From: Candidatus Mediterraneibacter guildfordensis | GTDB lineage: Bacteria; Bacillota; Clostridia; Lachnospirales; Lachnospiraceae | Assembly: GCA_019112735.1 (NCBI GenBank) | Contig: DXIS01000016.1 | Span: forward strand, 1-59,576 | Direction of reading: 5' to 3' | DNA length: 59,576 nt | Shown here: positions 1-53,544 of the stretch, one piece after another | Numbering within the stretch: the stretch's first letter is position 1 | Layout of the letters: the number at the start of each line of letters is the position of its first letter | Program-made: the position numbers and the translations under genes | Notes under the pieces: generated by a model | Told to the model about the DNA's origin: nothing | Databases searched by the model: none | What the model saw: only the letters and a program-made list of their open reading frames with translations

Positions 1-779
1 TGGATTCTGACACAGCAAAAGATGTGTACAGGTTCAGTTCGAGAATTATGAAAAATCTAAGGCCACGAAAAGCCGGCTAAATACAAAAAGAGGAATTGGA
101 GAACTCGCCTTTCAGGCTCAGACAGCTCCAAATCACAGAATCGACTGCCCAATACTTTTGAATCACCCGTCCGGAAAACAGAAGATTATCTCCTGAAGGC
201 AAGCTGTTTGAGAAGGGCTTATGTCCTTTTACAACCGGTTACGGTCAGAATGAGACTTTGTCTTGCTTGATTGATTATGATCTGCGGGATCAGGGCGCGT
301 CAAGGCCCTGCCCTTTGGGTGCTGCGCAGCCTTGACGCGCCCTGATCCTGCAGATATGATACAGACAAGCAGGCAAAGCCTCTCTGCGGTCCGGATTCCG
401 TCCCCCTTCTCGACACATTCTTTGGTTATTGTTTGTCGAACTGATCTTGGTAACTGCAGCACGGAATCATAAAAGAATTTCCAATCGGATGCAACTTTCA
501 CGGAATAAGGGATAAGACCAGACCGGTGACTGTGGAGCGGCTGTAGAAAAAGTAAAAAACGGAGCGCTGACTTTAGGAGTAGAGATGAAGTTGTCTGAGC
601 GAATGCGAGTTCTTCATCTCTGCTCCTGTTTTTTGTCAGTGTTCCGTTTTTGTAGTTTTTCTTAAGCTGCGGAACCGGAAACGGGAAGGTTTTATCCCTT
701 ATTCCGTGAATCCGCATCCTGATAGAAATTTATTGTTGTATTCTATGCTGCAGGTTCCGCTCAGTTCGATAAACAGGAA
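1..779 (+). repeat. Large structured non-coding repeat, copy 1 (candidate large RNA)
   Basis: This stretch aligns along its whole length with 50861-51620 in the same orientation, from the common start GGATTCTGACACAGC to the common end GATAAACAGGAA. The left edge is at the window start, so it may extend further. No reading frame is shared by both copies. Seen helices: a 23-bp stem 497-519/688-710; inside it 555-571/635-651 (17 of 17 paired, two as G-U) and a hairpin 576-590/612-626; a closing helix 437-444/761-768 with 454-461/746-753; a hairpin 253-269/366-381. Relative to copy 2 it lacks 48 nt after position 130, which removes the 3' strand of the first big hairpin, and carries 65 nt extra at about 280-355. 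Strand is inferred from most imperfect pairs being G-U on +. It could be a large non-coding RNA or a non-autonomous mobile element; no named family is claimed. Confidence 0.8.
280..355. repeat. 26-bp-arm palindrome inside repeat copy 1
   Basis: Arms 280-305 and 330-355 are inverted repeats matching at 25 of 26 positions around a 24-nt loop; the single difference (G286) would be a G-U pair in a + strand RNA. Copy 2 keeps only the outer end of the right arm (about 51188-51198), so this block is either a palindromic insertion into copy 1 or a deletion from copy 2. It sits exactly in the loop of the hairpin 253-269/366-381, so it lengthens a helix rather than disrupting the surrounding fold. Confidence 0.8.
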
Positions 780-781
780 TT

Positions 782-2104
782 TCACACTTTCAGCAGCGCC
801 TGTTTATACTCATTCTGAAATGCGGTTTTGTATTTGTCGGTCACTACGGACATATACAGGTTTGAGGCCAGGATGTCGTCCTGGAGCATTTTCTGTGCGA
901 TCCGGGGAAGATCTTCGCTGTCTGACAGGCGGGCGATGAGCGTCAGCGGGCTTTCCCGGGTGATCTTTGCCATGATTTTTTCACGTCCCTTCCGGATGCC
1001 TAGGAGCCGGGCGTAACAGTGAAAGCCGTTTTCGATATATTCGGTCATCCTGTCTTTTTTTATTCCAAGCATGATATGAAGCAGCGCCCGGTTGATACGC
1101 GTCTGGGTTGTCTCGCGGGTTTTGAGTAGCTCGCAGAACTGCCGGTAGTTGAAGAAGTCGTTCAGCCGTGCGGTGATGCGCGAGGCCAGTTCTTCAGAAA
1201 CGTCTGCGTAACGGATGAGGCTGTCAGTCCGTTTGTTAAGCAGCTTATATTTCAGGATAAGTGAAAAGTCGTTTGCATATACCGGGTACTGAACGTGGTG
1301 CCAGTCTTTTAAAAGCTCCAGGCAGTTTGGCGGCACCTGGCCTTCCAGCTCGGAGCGGATGTCTGAAAACGAAGTGTCTTCAAATGTCCCGGCGGTCTGC
1401 CCGGTGCCGAGGGCAGCGCTGGAGAAGGCAAGAAGAGAGCGGATCGCCGACGCGGAACTGTAATAACTGTCTGAGAGCTCACGGTCGTGATAGTGGGCTC
1501 CTTCGCGCCGGATCGTAAAGGGGGTGATCGGGCTTTTCAGCTTCTTCAGCGCTTTCAGGTATTCAATTCCCAGGATGTTGTTCGGCTCTTTCATAATATC
1601 CGCAAGCGTTGAGGAAGAGACAGAAGAGGCGGTCTTATCCCGGACTGACAGGGAATAGCCTGTGACGGCATTCTGGCGTGCGGCCGGGTAGGAGCAGCCC
1701 TGACGGAGATTTTCTCTGAGCAGATCCCGGTATTCGGGCGGCTCTTTTAAAAGGATGTCCGCGATCATTTCCATGGATCTGAGGTCGCTGCACTCGCTCC
1801 CGAAGCAGAGGCAGTCTACGATGCCAAGGCTGTCCAGAAGAGATACGGCGCCGGTGGCGAAGAGCTCCGCGCTTCCGGTGGCATAACAGACGGGGAGTTC
1901 GAATACGGCGTCCGCGCCGCATTTCAGCGCCATTTCCGCACGGAGCCGTTTAGGCATGATGGCGGGAACGCCCCGCTGTACATAATCGCCGCTCATTACG
2001 ACGATGACGGCGTCGGCGCCGGTGATCCGTTTGGTTTCCTGTATATGATAGAGATGTCCGTTGTGGAACGGATTGTATTCGGCGATCAGGCCAGCAATTT
2101 TCAT
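782..2104 (-). CDS. tmcAL: tRNA(Met) cytidine acetate ligase (TmcAL, formerly DUF795)
   Basis: The 440-residue product opens with the nucleotidyltransferase HIGH-like motif NPFHNGH at residues 11-17 and carries FGSE near residue 100, both typical of TmcAL. The family activates acetate with ATP and forms N4-acetylcytidine at the wobble position of elongator tRNA-Met in the cytoplasm. The start follows an AAGGAG ribosome binding site. It is divergent from mgtE across a 77-nt gap. Its stop codon lies 3 nt outside the 3' edge of repeat copy 1, so the repeat is directly downstream. The C-terminal half is helical and less conserved, as usual. Function is by family, not shown here. Confidence 0.93.
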   Translation of the reverse strand: MKIAGLIAEYNPFHNGHLYHIQETKRITGADAVIVVMSGDYVQRGVPAIMPKRLRAEMALKCGADAVFELPVCYATGSAELFATGAVSLLDSLGIVDCLCFGSECSDLRSMEMIADILLKEPPEYRDLLRENLRQGCSYPAARQNAVTGYSLSVRDKTASSVSSSTLADIMKEPNNILGIEYLKALKKLKSPITPFTIRREGAHYHDRELSDSYYSSASAIRSLLAFSSAALGTGQTAGTFEDTSFSDIRSELEGQVPPNCLELLKDWHHVQYPVYANDFSLILKYKLLNKRTDSLIRYADVSEELASRITARLNDFFNYRQFCELLKTRETTQTRINRALLHIMLGIKKDRMTEYIENGFHCYARLLGIRKGREKIMAKITRESPLTLIARLSDSEDLPRIAQKMLQDDILASNLYMSVVTDKYKTAFQNEYKQALLKV

Positions 2105-28125: not shown

Positions 28126-28478
28126 TGTGTCAAGTAGGACAGACAATCGCGGCTGCAGGCGCCGAAAGGCCGCAGACGAGGAAAGTCCGGGCTTCACAGG
28201 GCAGGATGCCGGATAACGTCCGGTGGAGGCGACTCCAAGGCCAGTGCAACAGAAATAAACCGCCGGGAATTTCCCGGTAAGGGTGGAAAGGCAGTGTAAG
28301 AGACTACCGCCCCGACGGTAACGGCGGGGGCACATGTAAACCCCATCCGAAGCAAGACCGGATAGAAACAATGTGGCGGCCCGTCACGTTTCAGGTAGGT
28401 CGCTTGAGCACAGCGGCGACGCTGTGCCTGGATAGATGATTGTCCACGACATAACCCGGCTTATCGTCCTGCTTGGCA
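28126..28478 (+). ncRNA. rnpB: RNase P RNA (class A)
   Basis: The RNA shows the conserved cores of bacterial RNase P: GAGGAAAGTCCGGGCT (CR-I) near 28180, the AAGGCCAGTGCAACAGAAA region, AGAGACTACCGCCCC and AAACCCCATCCGAAGCAAG, and the 3' ATAACCCGGCTTATCG strand. The ends pair over 13 bp (28128-28140 with 28466-28478, two or so as G-U) to form P1. TTTTT follows immediately, so P1 also acts as the terminator hairpin. It is the catalytic subunit for tRNA 5' maturation; rnpA is not in this window. Confidence 0.97.
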
Positions 28479-28481
28479 TTT

Positions 28482-48357: not shown

Positions 48358-49488
48358 ATGGAATCACTCGAAGTACTAAGAAAAGAGCTGGACCGGATCG
48401 ACGATCAGATCGCCGCGCTCTATGAACAGCGGATGGATGTATGCGGTCAGGTCGGTGAATATAAAGTGAAAACAGGCCGGAAGGTGTTTGACCGTCAGCG
48501 GGAGAAAGAAAAACTCGCGGATGTGGCGTCAAAGGTTTCCGGGGATTTTAATAAAAAGGGGATCCAGGAAGTCTATCAGCAGCTCATGTCCATGAGCCGG
48601 AAACTGCAGTATCAGCAGCTGGTGGAGGCCGGCGCGCTGGGACGGCTTCCCTTTATCCGGATCGACGGCATTGATAAGGAGAATGCCCGGGTCGTCTTCC
48701 AGGGAACGGAAGGGGCTTACGGACAGGCGGCCATGCAGCAGTATTTCGGGAAAGAGGTGAACTGCTTCCATGTGCGGACATTCCGGGAGGCCATGGAGGC
48801 CATCGAAGAGGGGGCTGCCGACTATGCGGTGCTGCCTATCGAGAACTCCACGGCCGGACCGGTGATCGAGATGTACGATCTCCTGGATGAATTTGAAAAT
48901 TATATTGTGGCGGAGACCATCCTGCCGGTGGTACATACGCTGGCCGGACTGCCGGGCGCGAAGCTTTCGGATATCAGCCGGGTGTATTCCAAGACCGAGG
49001 CCCTGATGCAGACCAGTCGGTTCCTGGATGACCATCCCGACTGGCAGCGGATCAGCGTGGTCAATACCGCTGTGGCGGCGAAGAAGGTCCTGGAGGAAAA
49101 CGACATCTCCCAGGCGGCAGTGTGCAGCGCCTATGCGGCAGATGTACACGGCCTGTCCGTTCTGGTGGACGGGATCAATGACGACGCGGACAATTCAACG
49201 AGATTTATCGTGGTGACCAACCAGAAAGTGTATTTAAAGGATGCCTCCAAGATCAGCATCCGCTTTGAACTGCCGCACCGGAGCGGTTCGCTGTACGGGA
49301 TCCTGTCACACTTTATCTACAATGATCTGAATATGACCAGGATCGAGTCCAGACCGGTCAAAGGACGGCCGTGGGAATACTGCTTTTTCGTGGATTTCGA
49401 AGGCAATCTGGAAGATCCGGCAGTGAAAAATGCGATCCGGGGACTCCGGGAAGAGGCCCAGAACCTGAAGATCCTGGGGAATTATTAG
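48358..49488 (+). CDS. pheA: Bifunctional chorismate mutase / prephenate dehydratase
   Basis: The 376-residue protein has an AroQ-type chorismate mutase (about 1-85, LRKELDRIDDQIAALYEQRM), a prephenate dehydratase domain (about 105-285, GTEGAYGQAAM, ENSTAGPV, NSTRFIVV) and a C-terminal ACT domain with the ESRPVKGRPWEY phenylalanine motif. It makes phenylpyruvate from chorismate under Phe feedback. RBS CAGGAAGGAGC. No T-box is visible in the roughly 130-nt upstream gap. It is 14 nt from the next gene. Confidence 0.95.
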   Translation: MESLEVLRKELDRIDDQIAALYEQRMDVCGQVGEYKVKTGRKVFDRQREKEKLADVASKVSGDFNKKGIQEVYQQLMSMSRKLQYQQLVEAGALGRLPFIRIDGIDKENARVVFQGTEGAYGQAAMQQYFGKEVNCFHVRTFREAMEAIEEGAADYAVLPIENSTAGPVIEMYDLLDEFENYIVAETILPVVHTLAGLPGAKLSDISRVYSKTEALMQTSRFLDDHPDWQRISVVNTAVAAKKVLEENDISQAAVCSAYAADVHGLSVLVDGINDDADNSTRFIVVTNQKVYLKDASKISIRFELPHRSGSLYGILSHFIYNDLNMTRIESRPVKGRPWEYCFFVDFEGNLEDPAVKNAIRGLREEAQNLKILGNY

Positions 49489-49502
49489 GAGGAAGATGTC
49501 CG

Positions 49503-50798
49503 ATGCGTACCAATGAACTGATGTTATATAAAAATATGGAATACGGGGAGATCCTGAAGGATATGACCTTCCTGATGGAGAACCACGGGAATGATTACTA
49601 TAACCGGGAGGATCTGAGGAGCCTGCTTTTCGAGTGCGTGAATGAGCTGCTGGAATTGTCCGTGAGCCACGGGTTCGAGGGGAATCTCTGGCACACTTAC
49701 CTTACATTTCTCCTCGTAAATGACGAGAACGCCTACAGCACTTCCTGTGAGATCGTGGGCGCTGTGGAGGGCAGCATCAATGAGATTGCACTCCATGATC
49801 TCGGCATCTTCAAAGAACTCTTTGATTACGACTTTACAGAGCTTGAGAAGAACCTGGGGGCGGGATGCATCCAGGTGCTGATGGATTACCACGGCGCAAG
49901 CCGCACAGGAAAAGTGTTCAACCGCCGGGTGCGGGACCGGATCTGCACGCTTGCCGGGGCGCTGGGCTGTTCGTCTGATGTGCAGGATTTCAAGGATAAG
50001 ATGACCCAGTTCTATAAAGAATTCGGCGTGGGCAAGCTGGGACTTCACAAGGCCTTCCGCATCGAGCATCCGGAAGGCGGCGACATGGAGATCATGCCCA
50101 TCACCAATATCGCCCACGTCCATCTGGACGACCTGGTAGGCTATGAGATCGCCAAAAAGAAACTGATCGACAATACCGAAGCATTCGTAAAAGGACGAAG
50201 GGCCAACAACTGCCTGCTCTTCGGAGATGCCGGTACAGGCAAATCATCCTCCATCAAAGCGATCCTGAACCAGTATTACGATCAGGGCCTTCGCATGATC
50301 GAAGTGTACAAGCACCAGTTTAAGGATCTGAACGAAGTGATCGCCCAGGTCAAAAACCGGAATTACAAGTTCATCATCTATATGGATGATCTTTCATTCG
50401 AAGAGTTTGAGATCGAGTATAAATATCTCAAAGCCGTGATCGAGGGCGGCCTGGAGCGGAAGCCGGAAAACGTGCTCATCTACGCGACCTCCAACCGCCG
50501 GCACCTGATCCGCGAAACCTTTAAAGACAAGGCGGACCGGGACGAGGAACTCCACACAAACGATACGGTCCAGGAAAAACTCTCCCTGGTGGCCCGGTTC
50601 GGCGTGACCATCTACTTCGGTTCTCCGGACAAAAAAGAGTTCCAGGAGATCGTGCGCGTGCTGGCGCAGCGCGGCGGCATCGACATGCCGGAAGAGCAGC
50701 TGCTCCTCGAAGCAAACAAATGGGAACTGGCCCACGGCGGCCTGTCCGGAAGGACGGCGCAGCAGTTTATCGACTATCTGCTGGGGAAGGAAGGGTAA
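49503..50798 (+). CDS. DUF815 family AAA ATPase
   Basis: Started at 49503, with AGGAGG 10 nt upstream, the protein has 431 residues. The N-terminal half is helical; the C-terminal half is an AAA domain with Walker A GDAGTGKSSSIKAIL and Walker B FIIYMDDLSFEEFE, then ATSNRRHLIRETF. DUF815 proteins are widespread and their substrate is unknown to me. It is probably co-transcribed with pheA. After its stop comes 62 nt of unique sequence and then repeat copy 2; no good terminator is seen before the repeat. Confidence 0.85.
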   Translation: MRTNELMLYKNMEYGEILKDMTFLMENHGNDYYNREDLRSLLFECVNELLELSVSHGFEGNLWHTYLTFLLVNDENAYSTSCEIVGAVEGSINEIALHDLGIFKELFDYDFTELEKNLGAGCIQVLMDYHGASRTGKVFNRRVRDRICTLAGALGCSSDVQDFKDKMTQFYKEFGVGKLGLHKAFRIEHPEGGDMEIMPITNIAHVHLDDLVGYEIAKKKLIDNTEAFVKGRRANNCLLFGDAGTGKSSSIKAILNQYYDQGLRMIEVYKHQFKDLNEVIAQVKNRNYKFIIYMDDLSFEEFEIEYKYLKAVIEGGLERKPENVLIYATSNRRHLIRETFKDKADRDEELHTNDTVQEKLSLVARFGVTIYFGSPDKKEFQEIVRVLAQRGGIDMPEEQLLLEANKWELAHGGLSGRTAQQFIDYLLGKEG

Positions 50799-50860
50799 AT
50801 TCCTGTTTTCCGGACAGCCTGATTCATAAATGCACTCGGCATCACGCATTGCATAGGGAA

Positions 50861-51620
50861 CGGATTCTGACACAGCAAAAGATGTGTTCAGGTTCAGTTC
50901 GAGAATTATGAAAAATCTAAGGCCATGAAAAGCCGGCTAAATACAAAAAGAGGAATTGGAGAACTCGCCTTTCAGGCTCAGACAGCTCCAATTCCTCTTT
51001 TAACGCCGCCTTTCCGTGGCCTGATTTTTTTCTATAATTCTCTCAGATTCACCTGCCCAATACTTTTGAATCGCCTGTTCGGAAAACATAAGATTTTTTG
51101 CTGAAGGGAAACTGTTGAGGGAGGGATAATGTCTTTTTATAGCCGGTTACGGTCAGAATGAGACTTTGTCTTGCTTGATTGATTATGATCCTGCAGATAT
51201 GATACAGACAAGCAAGCAAAGTCTCTCTGTGGTCCGGATTCCGTCCCCCTTCCCGACGCTTTTTTGCCCTGTTAATCGAACTGATCCTGGTAACTGCAGC
51301 ACAGAATCTTAAAATAATTTCTGATCGGATGCGACTTTCACGGAATCAGGGATAAAGCCGGACCGGTGACTGTGGAGCGGTCTTAGGAAAAGTAAAAACC
51401 GGAAAATTGACTTTAGAGCCGCAGATGAGGCTGTCTGAACGTTAGTGAGTTCCTCATCTGCGGCTCTGTTTTTTTGTCAATGATCCGGTTTTTAACTTTT
51501 CATTAGGCTGCGAAACCGGAGACGGGAAGGTTTTATCCCTGATTCCGTGAATCCGTATTCTCATAGAAATTTATTGTTGTATTCTATGCTGCAGGTTCCG
51601 CTCAGCTCGATAAACAGGAA
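50861..51620 (+). repeat. Large structured non-coding repeat, copy 2 (candidate large RNA)
   Basis: This is the fuller form of the element at 1-779. The first domain is an intact long hairpin: 50901-50909 pairs with 51034-51042, 50920-50927 with 51015-51022, and 50946-50961 with 50986-51001 (16 of 16). Further helices are 51161-51178/51209-51224, the 23-bp stem 51337-51359/51529-51551, the inner helix 51394-51411/51476-51493 and hairpin 51416-51430/51452-51466, and a closing helix 51277-51284/51602-51609. Several differ in sequence from copy 1 on both strands while still pairing. Loop 50961-50985 is complementary to loop 51431-51452. No conserved ORF. Its 3' end contains the stop codon of rqcH on the other strand. 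Confidence 0.82.
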
Positions 51621-53344
51621 GTTATCCCGCTTATATCACTGTCGATGACCAGCGAGTAATTTGTATAGTACACAACGAATCCTGGCTTGGCGCCGTTCGG
51701 TTTCTTTACGTGCTTTTTCTGGACATAGTCGATCTCGACTTTGTCGCTTCCCCGCATGCTGGAGTAATAGGCGGCCAGCCGGCCGGCTTCTTCGAAGGTC
51801 CGGTCGGGGAGTTCGGCTCCGTTTGACTTGACGATGACGTGGGAGCCGGGTGCCTGCTTGGCGTGGAACCACCAGTCATTTCCGGATGCGAAATGGAAGG
51901 TGAGTTCTTCGTTCTGCAGGTTGTTTTTTCCCACATAGATGTGGTAGCCGTCGCTGGAGATATAGTGGAGCGGCTCGTTTTTAATCCGGACCTTCTTTTT
52001 GGTGAACCGGCGGCGGATGTATCCGGCGCCTGCCAGTTCCTCCCGGATCTGGGCCAGGTCTTCCTCGGTAAGGGCGATATCGAGCGCGGTCTGGACGGAC
52101 TCCAGATAGTTGATGTCCTCCAGTGTTTCTTTGCTCAGTTCAGAGAGCGCTTCGAAGGTCCGCTTCTGTTTGTTGTATTTCGCGAAGTACCGCTGGGCGT
52201 TCTCCTGCGGCGTCTTTGTCGGGTCTAGGGGGATGGAGACCATCTCATTTGTATAGTAGTTGAGGGCGTCCAGTTTTCTGGCGTCTTCTTCCACATTGTA
52301 GCCGTAGGCGTTGATCAGTTCCCCGTAGATCCGGAATTTCTCCCGGTTTTCCGTGTCTTTCAGCTGCCGCAGCTGGAGATCGTATTTCTTGCGGTTCCGC
52401 TCCAGCGCCGTCTGGACGATGTGCCGTAGATCCGCGGATTTCTGGCGGATGCGCATCAGGAGGCTGCGGGTGGAGTAGAAGGTGCTCAAAACTTCCGAGA
52501 TGGAAGCGTATTCTCTGCACTCGTACATGTCAAAATGGGTCAGCGGCAGCGCCGCAAATTCTTTCGGCTCCCGGCCGTCATAATAAATGGCGGGCGTAAA
52601 CCGTCCTTCTTTAATGGCAGAAAGGTAGATCGTAAACTGCGTATAAAGATGGAACAGGATGTCTTCCGAATATTCTTTTGCCGGGATTGCGGAGTCCAGA
52701 CCGGCCAGGTGGCAGATCTCCTCGGCCGTGACCGGGCTGATGCCGGTGAAGCTTGTGTAGACCGCTTTGGAAACCGGCATGGGCTTTTCTTTCAGCAGTC
52801 CCGTGAAAGTATCCGCATCGACGGTGAGCGGATCGGCCTTATGCATGGTGTCCGGGATAAAGTATTCGCGGCCGGGCAGGACCTCCCGCACGGAACTCAT
52901 CTGGGCGGAGACGTGTTTGATGCTGTCGATGATCTTCCCGTCCGATGTGCAGAAGATGATATTGCTGTGCTTTCCCATGATCTCGACGATCAGTTCTTTA
53001 CGGCACAGGTCGCCCAGTTCGTCCAGATGTTCGATCGTAAAATGGATGATCCGTTCCAGTTTCGGCTGCCGGATATCGACGATCCGTCCGCCGCCGATGT
53101 GTTTGCGAAGGAGCATGCAGAAGTTCGGCGCGGTCATGGGCGCGGGTTTGTTTGCGTCTGTCAGATAGATAAGCGGAAGGGAAGCGTCCGCGCTTATGAG
53201 GAGCCGCCGCTGTCCGTCGTTTGTTTTTATCGTAAGGAGCAGTTCATCTGTCTCGGGCTGGGCGATCTTTGCGATGCGTCCCCCGATCAGTTCATTTCTG
53301 AATTCGTGGACAAGGTCTGCCACGACAATGCCGTCAAAAGCCAT
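51602..53344 (-). CDS. rqcH: Rqc2/NEMF homologue RqcH (NFACT protein, formerly FbpA-like)
   Basis: Started at 53344 the protein has 580 residues, near the Bacillus length. It has an NFACT-N domain (about 1-200, MAFDGIVVADLVHEF), helix-hairpin-helix and coiled coils (about 290-430), and an NFACT-R domain with WWFHAKQAPGSHVIVK. RqcH binds stalled 50S subunits and recruits tRNA-Ala to add alanine tails. The last codons (SCLSS) and the stop lie inside the 3' edge of repeat copy 2, so the repeat's boundary sets the C-terminus. A minus-strand TATACT with extended TG near 53385 is a possible promoter. Confidence 0.93.
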   Translation of the reverse strand: MAFDGIVVADLVHEFRNELIGGRIAKIAQPETDELLLTIKTNDGQRRLLISADASLPLIYLTDANKPAPMTAPNFCMLLRKHIGGGRIVDIRQPKLERIIHFTIEHLDELGDLCRKELIVEIMGKHSNIIFCTSDGKIIDSIKHVSAQMSSVREVLPGREYFIPDTMHKADPLTVDADTFTGLLKEKPMPVSKAVYTSFTGISPVTAEEICHLAGLDSAIPAKEYSEDILFHLYTQFTIYLSAIKEGRFTPAIYYDGREPKEFAALPLTHFDMYECREYASISEVLSTFYSTRSLLMRIRQKSADLRHIVQTALERNRKKYDLQLRQLKDTENREKFRIYGELINAYGYNVEEDARKLDALNYYTNEMVSIPLDPTKTPQENAQRYFAKYNKQKRTFEALSELSKETLEDINYLESVQTALDIALTEEDLAQIREELAGAGYIRRRFTKKKVRIKNEPLHYISSDGYHIYVGKNNLQNEELTFHFASGNDWWFHAKQAPGSHVIVKSNGAELPDRTFEEAGRLAAYYSSMRGSDKVEIDYVQKKHVKKPNGAKPGFVVYYTNYSLVIDSDISGITSCLSS

Positions 53345-53419
53345 AGTAATCCGGTCCTTTCTGTATGTTGACAAGAGAAAGTATACCATATTCAGACGGG
53401 CCGTGAAAGCCTTTTTGTG

Positions 53420-53448
53420 TTGACCATTGCCGTGCCAGAGAGTATAAT
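53420..53448 (+). promoter_or_regulatory. Promoter of the YicC-gmk-rpoZ unit
   Basis: TTGACC (53420-53425), 17 nt, TATAAT (53443-53448), divergent from rqcH. The leader before the first gene is about 90 nt. Confidence 0.8.
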
Positions 53449-53544
53449 ATATCAAATGCGGGATATGTCCCGGAATGAAAAAGAGAACTCCTGCCTGACA
53501 GGGATGAAAGGCGGAGAATATGTAAATACAGAGGATGGTTTGAG

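Follow-up and report, generated by a model that had tools for sequence, protein, structure and literature searches.

The window, a stretch of 59,576 nt from Candidatus Mediterraneibacter guildfordensis, carries two long non-coding repeats that fold alike, and it raises the question of what such repeats are and what they might do. A sequence-only reading had described them as two ~760-nt copies with helices that change on both strands, and had placed them in the range of large bacterial non-coding RNAs such as GOLLD, ROOL or OLE. This interpretation is partly supported. Both repeats are real, but the second is 825 nt long (50798–51622), and the first (1–781) is truncated because the window begins at the start of its contig. 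The hairpins at 576–590/612–626 and 51416–51430/51452–51466 and the stem at 497–519/688–710 lie where that reading had put them, the 79-nt spacing from stem start to hairpin is the same in both copies, and the lack of a shared ORF is borne out across copies.

Anatomy and distribution of the repeat

The complete copy, delimited by whole-genome matching, terminal motifs and fold, was assigned to neither strand. It fills the gap between two convergent genes, encoding a DUF815 AAA ATPase (49371–50798, plus strand) and an NFACT family protein (51602–53455, minus strand), and runs from one stop codon to inside the final codons of the NFACT gene. The left terminal inverted repeat, AATTCCTGTTTTCCGG (50798–50813, plus strand), overlaps the DUF815 TAA stop (50796–50798) by its first base. 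The right one, ACTTCCTGTTTATCGAGC when read on the minus strand, occupies 51605–51622, and this end of the element encodes the last codons and the TGA stop (51602–51604) of the NFACT gene. The predicted folding energy of 50801–51625 is −356.8 kcal/mol, compared with a mean of −227.1 kcal/mol in 20 dinucleotide shuffles (z = −15).

The copy folds as three consecutive hairpin modules. H1 (50801–51088, plus strand) is a nested hairpin with outer arms TGTTTTCCGGACAG and CTGTTCGGAAAACA; its conserved core, at 50911–51032 with strand A on the plus strand, scores 111.3 bits with covariance model R1, and its tip hairpin (50946–51001, plus strand; stem 50946–50961/50986–51001) carries the conserved loop motif AACTC..TCAGACA. 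H2 is a middle hairpin (51086–51262, neither strand) at which other copies hold a 62-nt insert. H3 (51268–51620) is again nested, with 62-nt arms (51337–51398/51490–51551) and a core at 51384–51502 (109.9 bits), and has strand A on the minus strand; its reverse complement shares tip-loop and internal-loop motifs with H1. The core is a 120-nt nested hairpin within modules of ~290–355 nt. It comprises an A-rich tract and a helix, then internal loops that are conserved, a tip stem of 16 bp whose loop motif is GAACTC-(mini-stem)-TCAGACA, and a mirrored T-rich tract. In the truncated copy, again assigned to neither strand, a remnant of H1 (2–184) has lost ~50 nt of its 3′ arm, H2 (178–414) carries the 62-nt insert at ~288–346, and H3 (430–779) has its core at 544–661 on the minus strand (114.1 bits). 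The copy ends at 781, adjoining the TGA stop (782–784) of a HIGH nucleotidyltransferase gene (782–2104, minus strand), presumably tmcAL.

The two copies do not stand alone. A BLAST search of the source genome (2.4 Mb, 40 contigs) gave 50 matches that merged to ~21 places, so that both copies form part of a non-coding repeat family interspersed through this Mediterraneibacter-type genome. Modules combine variably, with the optional 62-nt insert in H2 and a 46-nt insert in H1, and some copies include an AT-rich module with many CCGTAT/ATACGG stretches. This module, of ~400 nt, was seen to replace or join H1/H2 at L036 (as reverse complement), L092, L102, L107, L110 and L111. The repeat appears to break this assembly, 11 of whose 80 contig ends fall within the element; the ends concerned were those of G000 contigs C1, C7, C9, C15, C23, C29, C30, C32, C34, C39 and C40.

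Similarity at the DNA level is narrow. It extends to 7 of 58 genus genomes, including the source genome, three of them with only short matches of 69–75%, and the named database records that share the repeat are metagenome-assembled genomes of Mediterraneibacter. Model R1 (120 positions, 41 pairs) reaches further, with matches in at least 49 of the 58 genus genomes, and with at least 28 matches in the source genome and at least 62 in each of two others. In the rest of the family it matches at least 29 of 298 other genera at one genome each (30 of 299 counting the source genome), and in other families of the class at least five genomes (7 of 291 counting the source genome and one further family genome). 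These counts are lower bounds, as 62 candidates were scored per genome in the genus and 12 in other genera and other families. Outside the family, G496, G409 and G635 gave weak core matches, at least three to eight per genome. A loop pattern matched 117 of 299 family genomes, with 24 matches in the source genome and none for the reversed control, and by eye exceeded the reversed control only in the source genome, G161 and a few others. The first loop-motif patterns tried, scanned over the window, returned the loop of the truncated copy itself and three chance-level matches, and were set aside. Three gene junctions in G031 (L118:751–803, L117:741–800 and L113:712–796) hold little beyond the tip hairpin, with near-H3 stem sequence, and are probably remnants of the full element.

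No Rfam family accounts for the element. A search of the window with Rfam 15 matched only the class A RNase P RNA (28131–28479, 305.5 bits), whose genus relatives later served as a control for pair composition, and nothing on the element. At seven loci, with E-values up to 5, there were 10 matches, none at its gathering score (the best, MIR8562, 52.1 bits against 211). Among the titles and abstract openings searched, a partial coverage of the literature, there was no description of the palindrome family.

Fold conservation and the make-up of the pairs

The two copies by themselves are weak evidence of compensation, because the tip stem in the source species and its nearest relatives has mainly two alleles, of the GGAG[C/T]AGAGATGAAG and GAGCCGCAGATGAGG types. 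Compensatory change, as the sequence-only reading had claimed, is however evident in homologues from the wider family, and so is upkeep of the fold. Further genomes have hairpins with the same loops but unrelated stems. Alignment of 16 cores gave 49 predicted pairs, of which 45 change on both sides. Scoring with R1 covered a chosen set of loci: 67 of the 80 from the genus, 32 from elsewhere, and the window itself. In 130 distinct cores, 93.7% of 5304 cells are paired, as against 48–50% when partners are slid by one column, two-sided changes occur in 41 of 41 pairs, and the covariation score is 0.863 (0.228 when shuffled); this alignment was fitted to R1 and includes the model's relatives. A check that depends less on the model used 26 cores from 25 other genera, drawn from 25 of 29 other-genus loci (L214–L242): 91.3% of cells are paired, and again all 41 pairs have changed two-sidedly. 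De novo alignment and folding of 17 of these (the first 17 of the 26 rows) recovered the same nested fold at −53.6 kcal/mol; the column-shuffled control gave 0.0, but is a weak control because the shuffle destroys all neighbourhood. Sequence comparison thus confirmed that the fold is kept while the sequence changes, across genera, and the loop motifs are conserved over the same range.

The make-up of the pairs is unusual for an RNA. On strand A, G-U accounts for 1.3% (70) and A-C for 3.4% (179) of the 5304 cells, G-U falls to 0.24% in the tip stem, and the 26 other-genus sequences give 1.9% G-U and 2.6% A-C. Changes between A-U and G-C are frequent, with few G-U intermediates. The RNase P RNA control from the genus (30 loci from 56 genomes with a match) has 12.6% G-U and 0.1% A-C, although this set is more alike (mean identity 0.84 vs 0.54), so that the comparison is indicative only. 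Terminator-like hairpins at the same loci, found with a scanner that permits any mismatch, contain 38 G-U and 20 A-C in 823 pairs. An RNA acting from one strand would tolerate G-U and avoid A-C on that strand, and the element does not follow this pattern. Near-exclusive Watson–Crick pairing is thus unlike RNA selected on one strand, and fits a two-strand constraint or upkeep at the DNA level. Where one constraint may act on both strands, even perfect covariation should not be read as proving an RNA.

These figures bear directly on the proposal of a single, stand-alone structured RNA of the GOLLD, ROOL or OLE type. The size, the strong fold and the covariation are what such an RNA would show. 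High copy number, terminal inverted repeats, mosaics of modules, position at stop codons (below), the lack of an Rfam match and the scarcity of G-U speak against it, and copy number, mosaics and pair make-up led to its rejection; we regard it as very unlikely.

Upkeep at the DNA level is also improbable, though less so. The element could act at convergent junctions, where positive supercoils meet, as a cruciform or single-stranded hairpin or as a site for gyrase or a nucleoid protein, its perfect pairs being maintained by template-switch copying between the arms. Both the almost exclusively Watson–Crick pairing, set against the G-U share of RNase P RNA, and the scarcity of G-U intermediates would follow. 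However, A-C outnumbers G-U on strand A, which suggests a difference between the strands, a two-strand terminator would likewise purge both kinds of mismatch, and the conserved loop sequences call for a binder, of which none is known.

Placement at stop codons and turnover of copies

The position of the element relative to genes was examined at 80 fetched genus loci. There were 136 core matches, and 22 low-scoring antisense matches (≤44.4 bits) were dropped to leave 114 cores, of which 109 were testable for stop spacing (five lie <300 nt from an edge). Using simple ORF calls, without homology support, here and at the other-genus loci, an ORF of at least 100 codons was found to stop 112–134 nt upstream of 83 of the 109 cores, compared with 96 of 3575 random positions in the same loci. 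The end of the element therefore abuts the stop codon: the outer arm spans the distance from stop to core, and in 72 of the 83 the terminal motif begins between −1 and 7 nt past the stop; two others have it at 10 and 13 nt, and in nine the pattern was unrecognised. At the remaining testable cores, the ORF runs into the arm in eight, stops elsewhere within 400 nt in 12 and is absent in six; 18 of the 109 are without fixed stop spacing. Some genes end at a stop codon that lies within the element, which thus encodes the C-termini of their proteins, such as ...GITSCLSS for the NFACT protein in the window and ...FAGEP or ...FVGEP types elsewhere. In other genera, fixed stop spacing of the cores is absent; by the same simple calls, 17 of 25 loci have their nearest upstream ORF on strand A, and the flanking genes recognised by eye are, we assume, ordinary metabolic or tRNA-synthetase genes.

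Where there are several cores, they face inward. The first two cores are in inward order in all 33 multi-core loci (32 as a pair, one with a third core), and ORF stops are abutted on both sides in 18 of the 27 testable two-core loci. Single-core loci (47 of the 80) are anchored mainly on one side, with a stop at 60–134 nt on the strand-A side in 40 of 47, compared with 10 of the 40 that could be tested on the opposite side, so that a role for two genes is shown for only part of the family. This one-sided anchoring, along with loop motifs kept across genera, is what would be seen if the repeat were a 3′-UTR RNA element, acting 3′ of the stop on mRNA stability or ribosome release through a loop-reading protein. 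Such a role is nevertheless doubtful, and we hold it to be improbable, because G-U is rarer than A-C on strand A, the opposite of what selection on a strand-A RNA would give, and because the flanking genes vary from site to site.

Comparison of the same junctions between genomes shows some that are filled and some that are empty. Between the DUF815 and NFACT genes, 10 of 30 loci (in G070, G005, G024, G026, G025, G020, G013, G017, G074 and G021) were readable as convergent pairs that lack the element, with the ORFs from −32 nt (an overlap, in G021) to 80 nt apart; the overlap aside, these gaps are 5–80 nt, compared with 803 nt in the window. Next to the nucleotidyltransferase gene, where the truncated copy lies, short gaps of 12 nt (G009), 51 nt (G024) and 113 nt (G013 and G081) were found, as were long gaps with element-type ends of 193 nt (G004), 349 nt (G010), 422 nt (G066), 752 nt (G030) and 1050 nt (G019). 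Other neighbourhoods of the DUF815 and NFACT genes in the genus (L132, L140, L145 and L149) hold a different short motif, CTTCCCGTATT or its near-complement form, which is perhaps another repeat family.

Copies also appear to be exchanged. The end of the DUF815 gene adjoins the H1 end of the element in one of G000 and G030 and the H3 end in the other, and the convergent partners are not the same in G000 and G019; together these suggest recombination between copies. For the 103 of 123 cores that have an ORF end on their upstream side, median core identity is 0.51 for the same gene end in different genomes (34 pairs), 0.52 for different ends (4763 pairs) and 0.59 for different sites in the same genome (456 pairs). 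In 26 of the 34 same-end pairs each core more closely resembles another copy from its own genome, six are mixed, and in two the ortholog is closer; since four of the 34 are also 90–99% identical, replacement is not universal. Full-length composites at unrelated loci of G062 align over 958–976 nt at 88–93% identity (the best nine pairs), with sharp ends of the form AAATCTG...CAGATTT. Thus, junctions stay in use while the sequences that occupy them are often replaced.

An alternative view is that the repeat is a non-autonomous mobile element, MITE- or REPIN-like and without a host role, which survives 3′ of stops because it is least harmful there and is moved in trans, perhaps by a Y1/RAYT-type enzyme. 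The terminal inverted repeats, the copy numbers (up to at least 62) and the sharp ends with unrelated flanks all speak for it, as does a Y1-type protein of ~246–309 aa in many genomes. As a partner, however, a Y1/RAYT transposase was rejected, its distribution and neighbourhood fitting poorly: there is no core in the 4.5–5 kb surrounding the Y1 gene at 16 loci (one weak match, E = 0.043), G072 has 43 copies at 100% completeness and no Y1 match, and a longer Y1 protein is present in four of nine genomes without R1 matches. In all four loci whose ORFs were read, the Y1 gene has the same two neighbours, which we take to be glyS and a gene for an M18-type aminopeptidase. A Y1/RAYT-like gene at G000:C24:8153–8479 (L367) has an HFHILI motif and kept neighbours, as if domesticated. 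Nor do other observations favour mobility alone, as the two-sided change of all 41 pairs in different genera argues that the fold is maintained, random insertion would not be expected to leave ends flush at two stops, and one 24-base pattern had no exact match in viral contigs. One end pattern had 12 matches in the source genome, nine of them at element ends, and no target-site duplication was seen by eye in the subset of element flanks inspected. We consider mobility without a host role unlikely, although it is the strongest of these alternatives.

A possible two-way terminator and its relation to known systems

The reading that we favour is of a family of fold-conserved palindromes, mostly stop-abutting, often occupying the entire gap of a convergent pair and homogenised within genomes, that may serve as two-way transcription terminators (insulators); judged from comparative sequence data, we put its probability at a little under one half. 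A polymerase leaving either of the convergent genes would transcribe first the core belonging to that gene, where it would be released by the hairpin together with a U-rich tract; any read-through would be caught by the second core, and neither gene would then be read in antisense. Each core being an almost perfect palindrome, either strand could do this, and strict Watson–Crick pairs would be favoured as a result. The A/T-rich tracts are symmetric; for strands A and B, the T fraction beside helix 2 is 0.55 and 0.60, respectively. We infer that transcription ends at the elements, that both strands are used, and that copies spread within the genome or overwrite one another by gene conversion while the gene junctions stay in use.

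There is precedent for this class of function in two reports. In E. coli, inverted repeats are enriched just 3′ of stop codons and are mostly parts of intrinsic terminators (PMC6060812), and in human microbiomes terminators were predicted within 230 of 250 candidate structured RNAs of palindromic type (PMC8040213), which makes a terminator function plausible. Several observations count against a two-way terminator, among them the mainly one-sided anchoring of single-core loci, the cores that lack fixed stop spacing and the A-C excess on strand A. The U-tract, as judged by eye, often lies 2–4 nt beyond helix 2 rather than directly after it, the conserved internal and apical loop sequences are superfluous for a plain terminator, and the terminator-like hairpins at the same loci contain more G-U.

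More tentatively, and with less confidence than in termination itself, the family may represent a new class of genome element: inward-facing, fold-conserved palindromes installed exactly at convergent stops, replacing the native gap and terminator, sometimes supplying the last codons of a gene, and rewritten in concert in each genome. Were this so, the convergent junctions of a bacterium would carry one shared, replaceable insulator. If the favoured reading is right, many unrelated genes in gut Lachnospiraceae have 3′ ends made up by one repeat family, whose fold is conserved across genera and whose ends are set at stop codons. This raises the question of how DNA comes to be placed flush between two stop codons, and it opens to testing the connection of repeats with convergent transcription and with genome rearrangement.

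Several known systems resemble the family in part. REP, REPIN and BIME sequences with their RAYT (TnpA-REP) proteins are likewise multi-copy extragenic palindromes, often downstream of genes, and a Y1-type protein occurs in many of the genomes here. REP/REPIN copies sit beside the RAYT gene, whereas the Y1 gene here is not flanked by copies at the 16 loci apart from the one weak match. As defined in the abstract of PMC3733652, a REP is a palindrome of 20–40 bp that is tagged at one end by GTAG or CGTC, in contrast to modules of ~290–355 nt. The elements here end in motifs of the AATTCCTG, ATTCGTG or AAATCTG type, with neither tag; CGTC occurs inside some arms, never at an end. Fixed spacing to stops and conserved internal loops also set the family apart from REP/REPIN.

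MITEs and BOX/ERIC repeats have terminal inverted repeats, lack coding capacity, and are interspersed and modular. The family matches them in all of these, with terminal inverted repeats and no ORF common to its copies, but differs in ends that abut stops, inward-facing core pairs and cross-genus covariation. No parent insertion sequence was found, one end pattern having been searched in the source genome. GOLLD, ROOL and OLE share with the element a length of several hundred nucleotides and a strong conserved fold, and are unlike it in that the family is repeated, palindromic and Watson–Crick only, with no Rfam match. The similarity to bidirectional intrinsic (Rho-independent) terminators lies in an A-rich tract, a helix and a T-rich tract that are present on both strands at gene 3′ ends; unlike these, the family has a core of 120 nt in which internal and apical loops are conserved, set in modules of ~290–355 nt that are repeated and homogenised in each genome.
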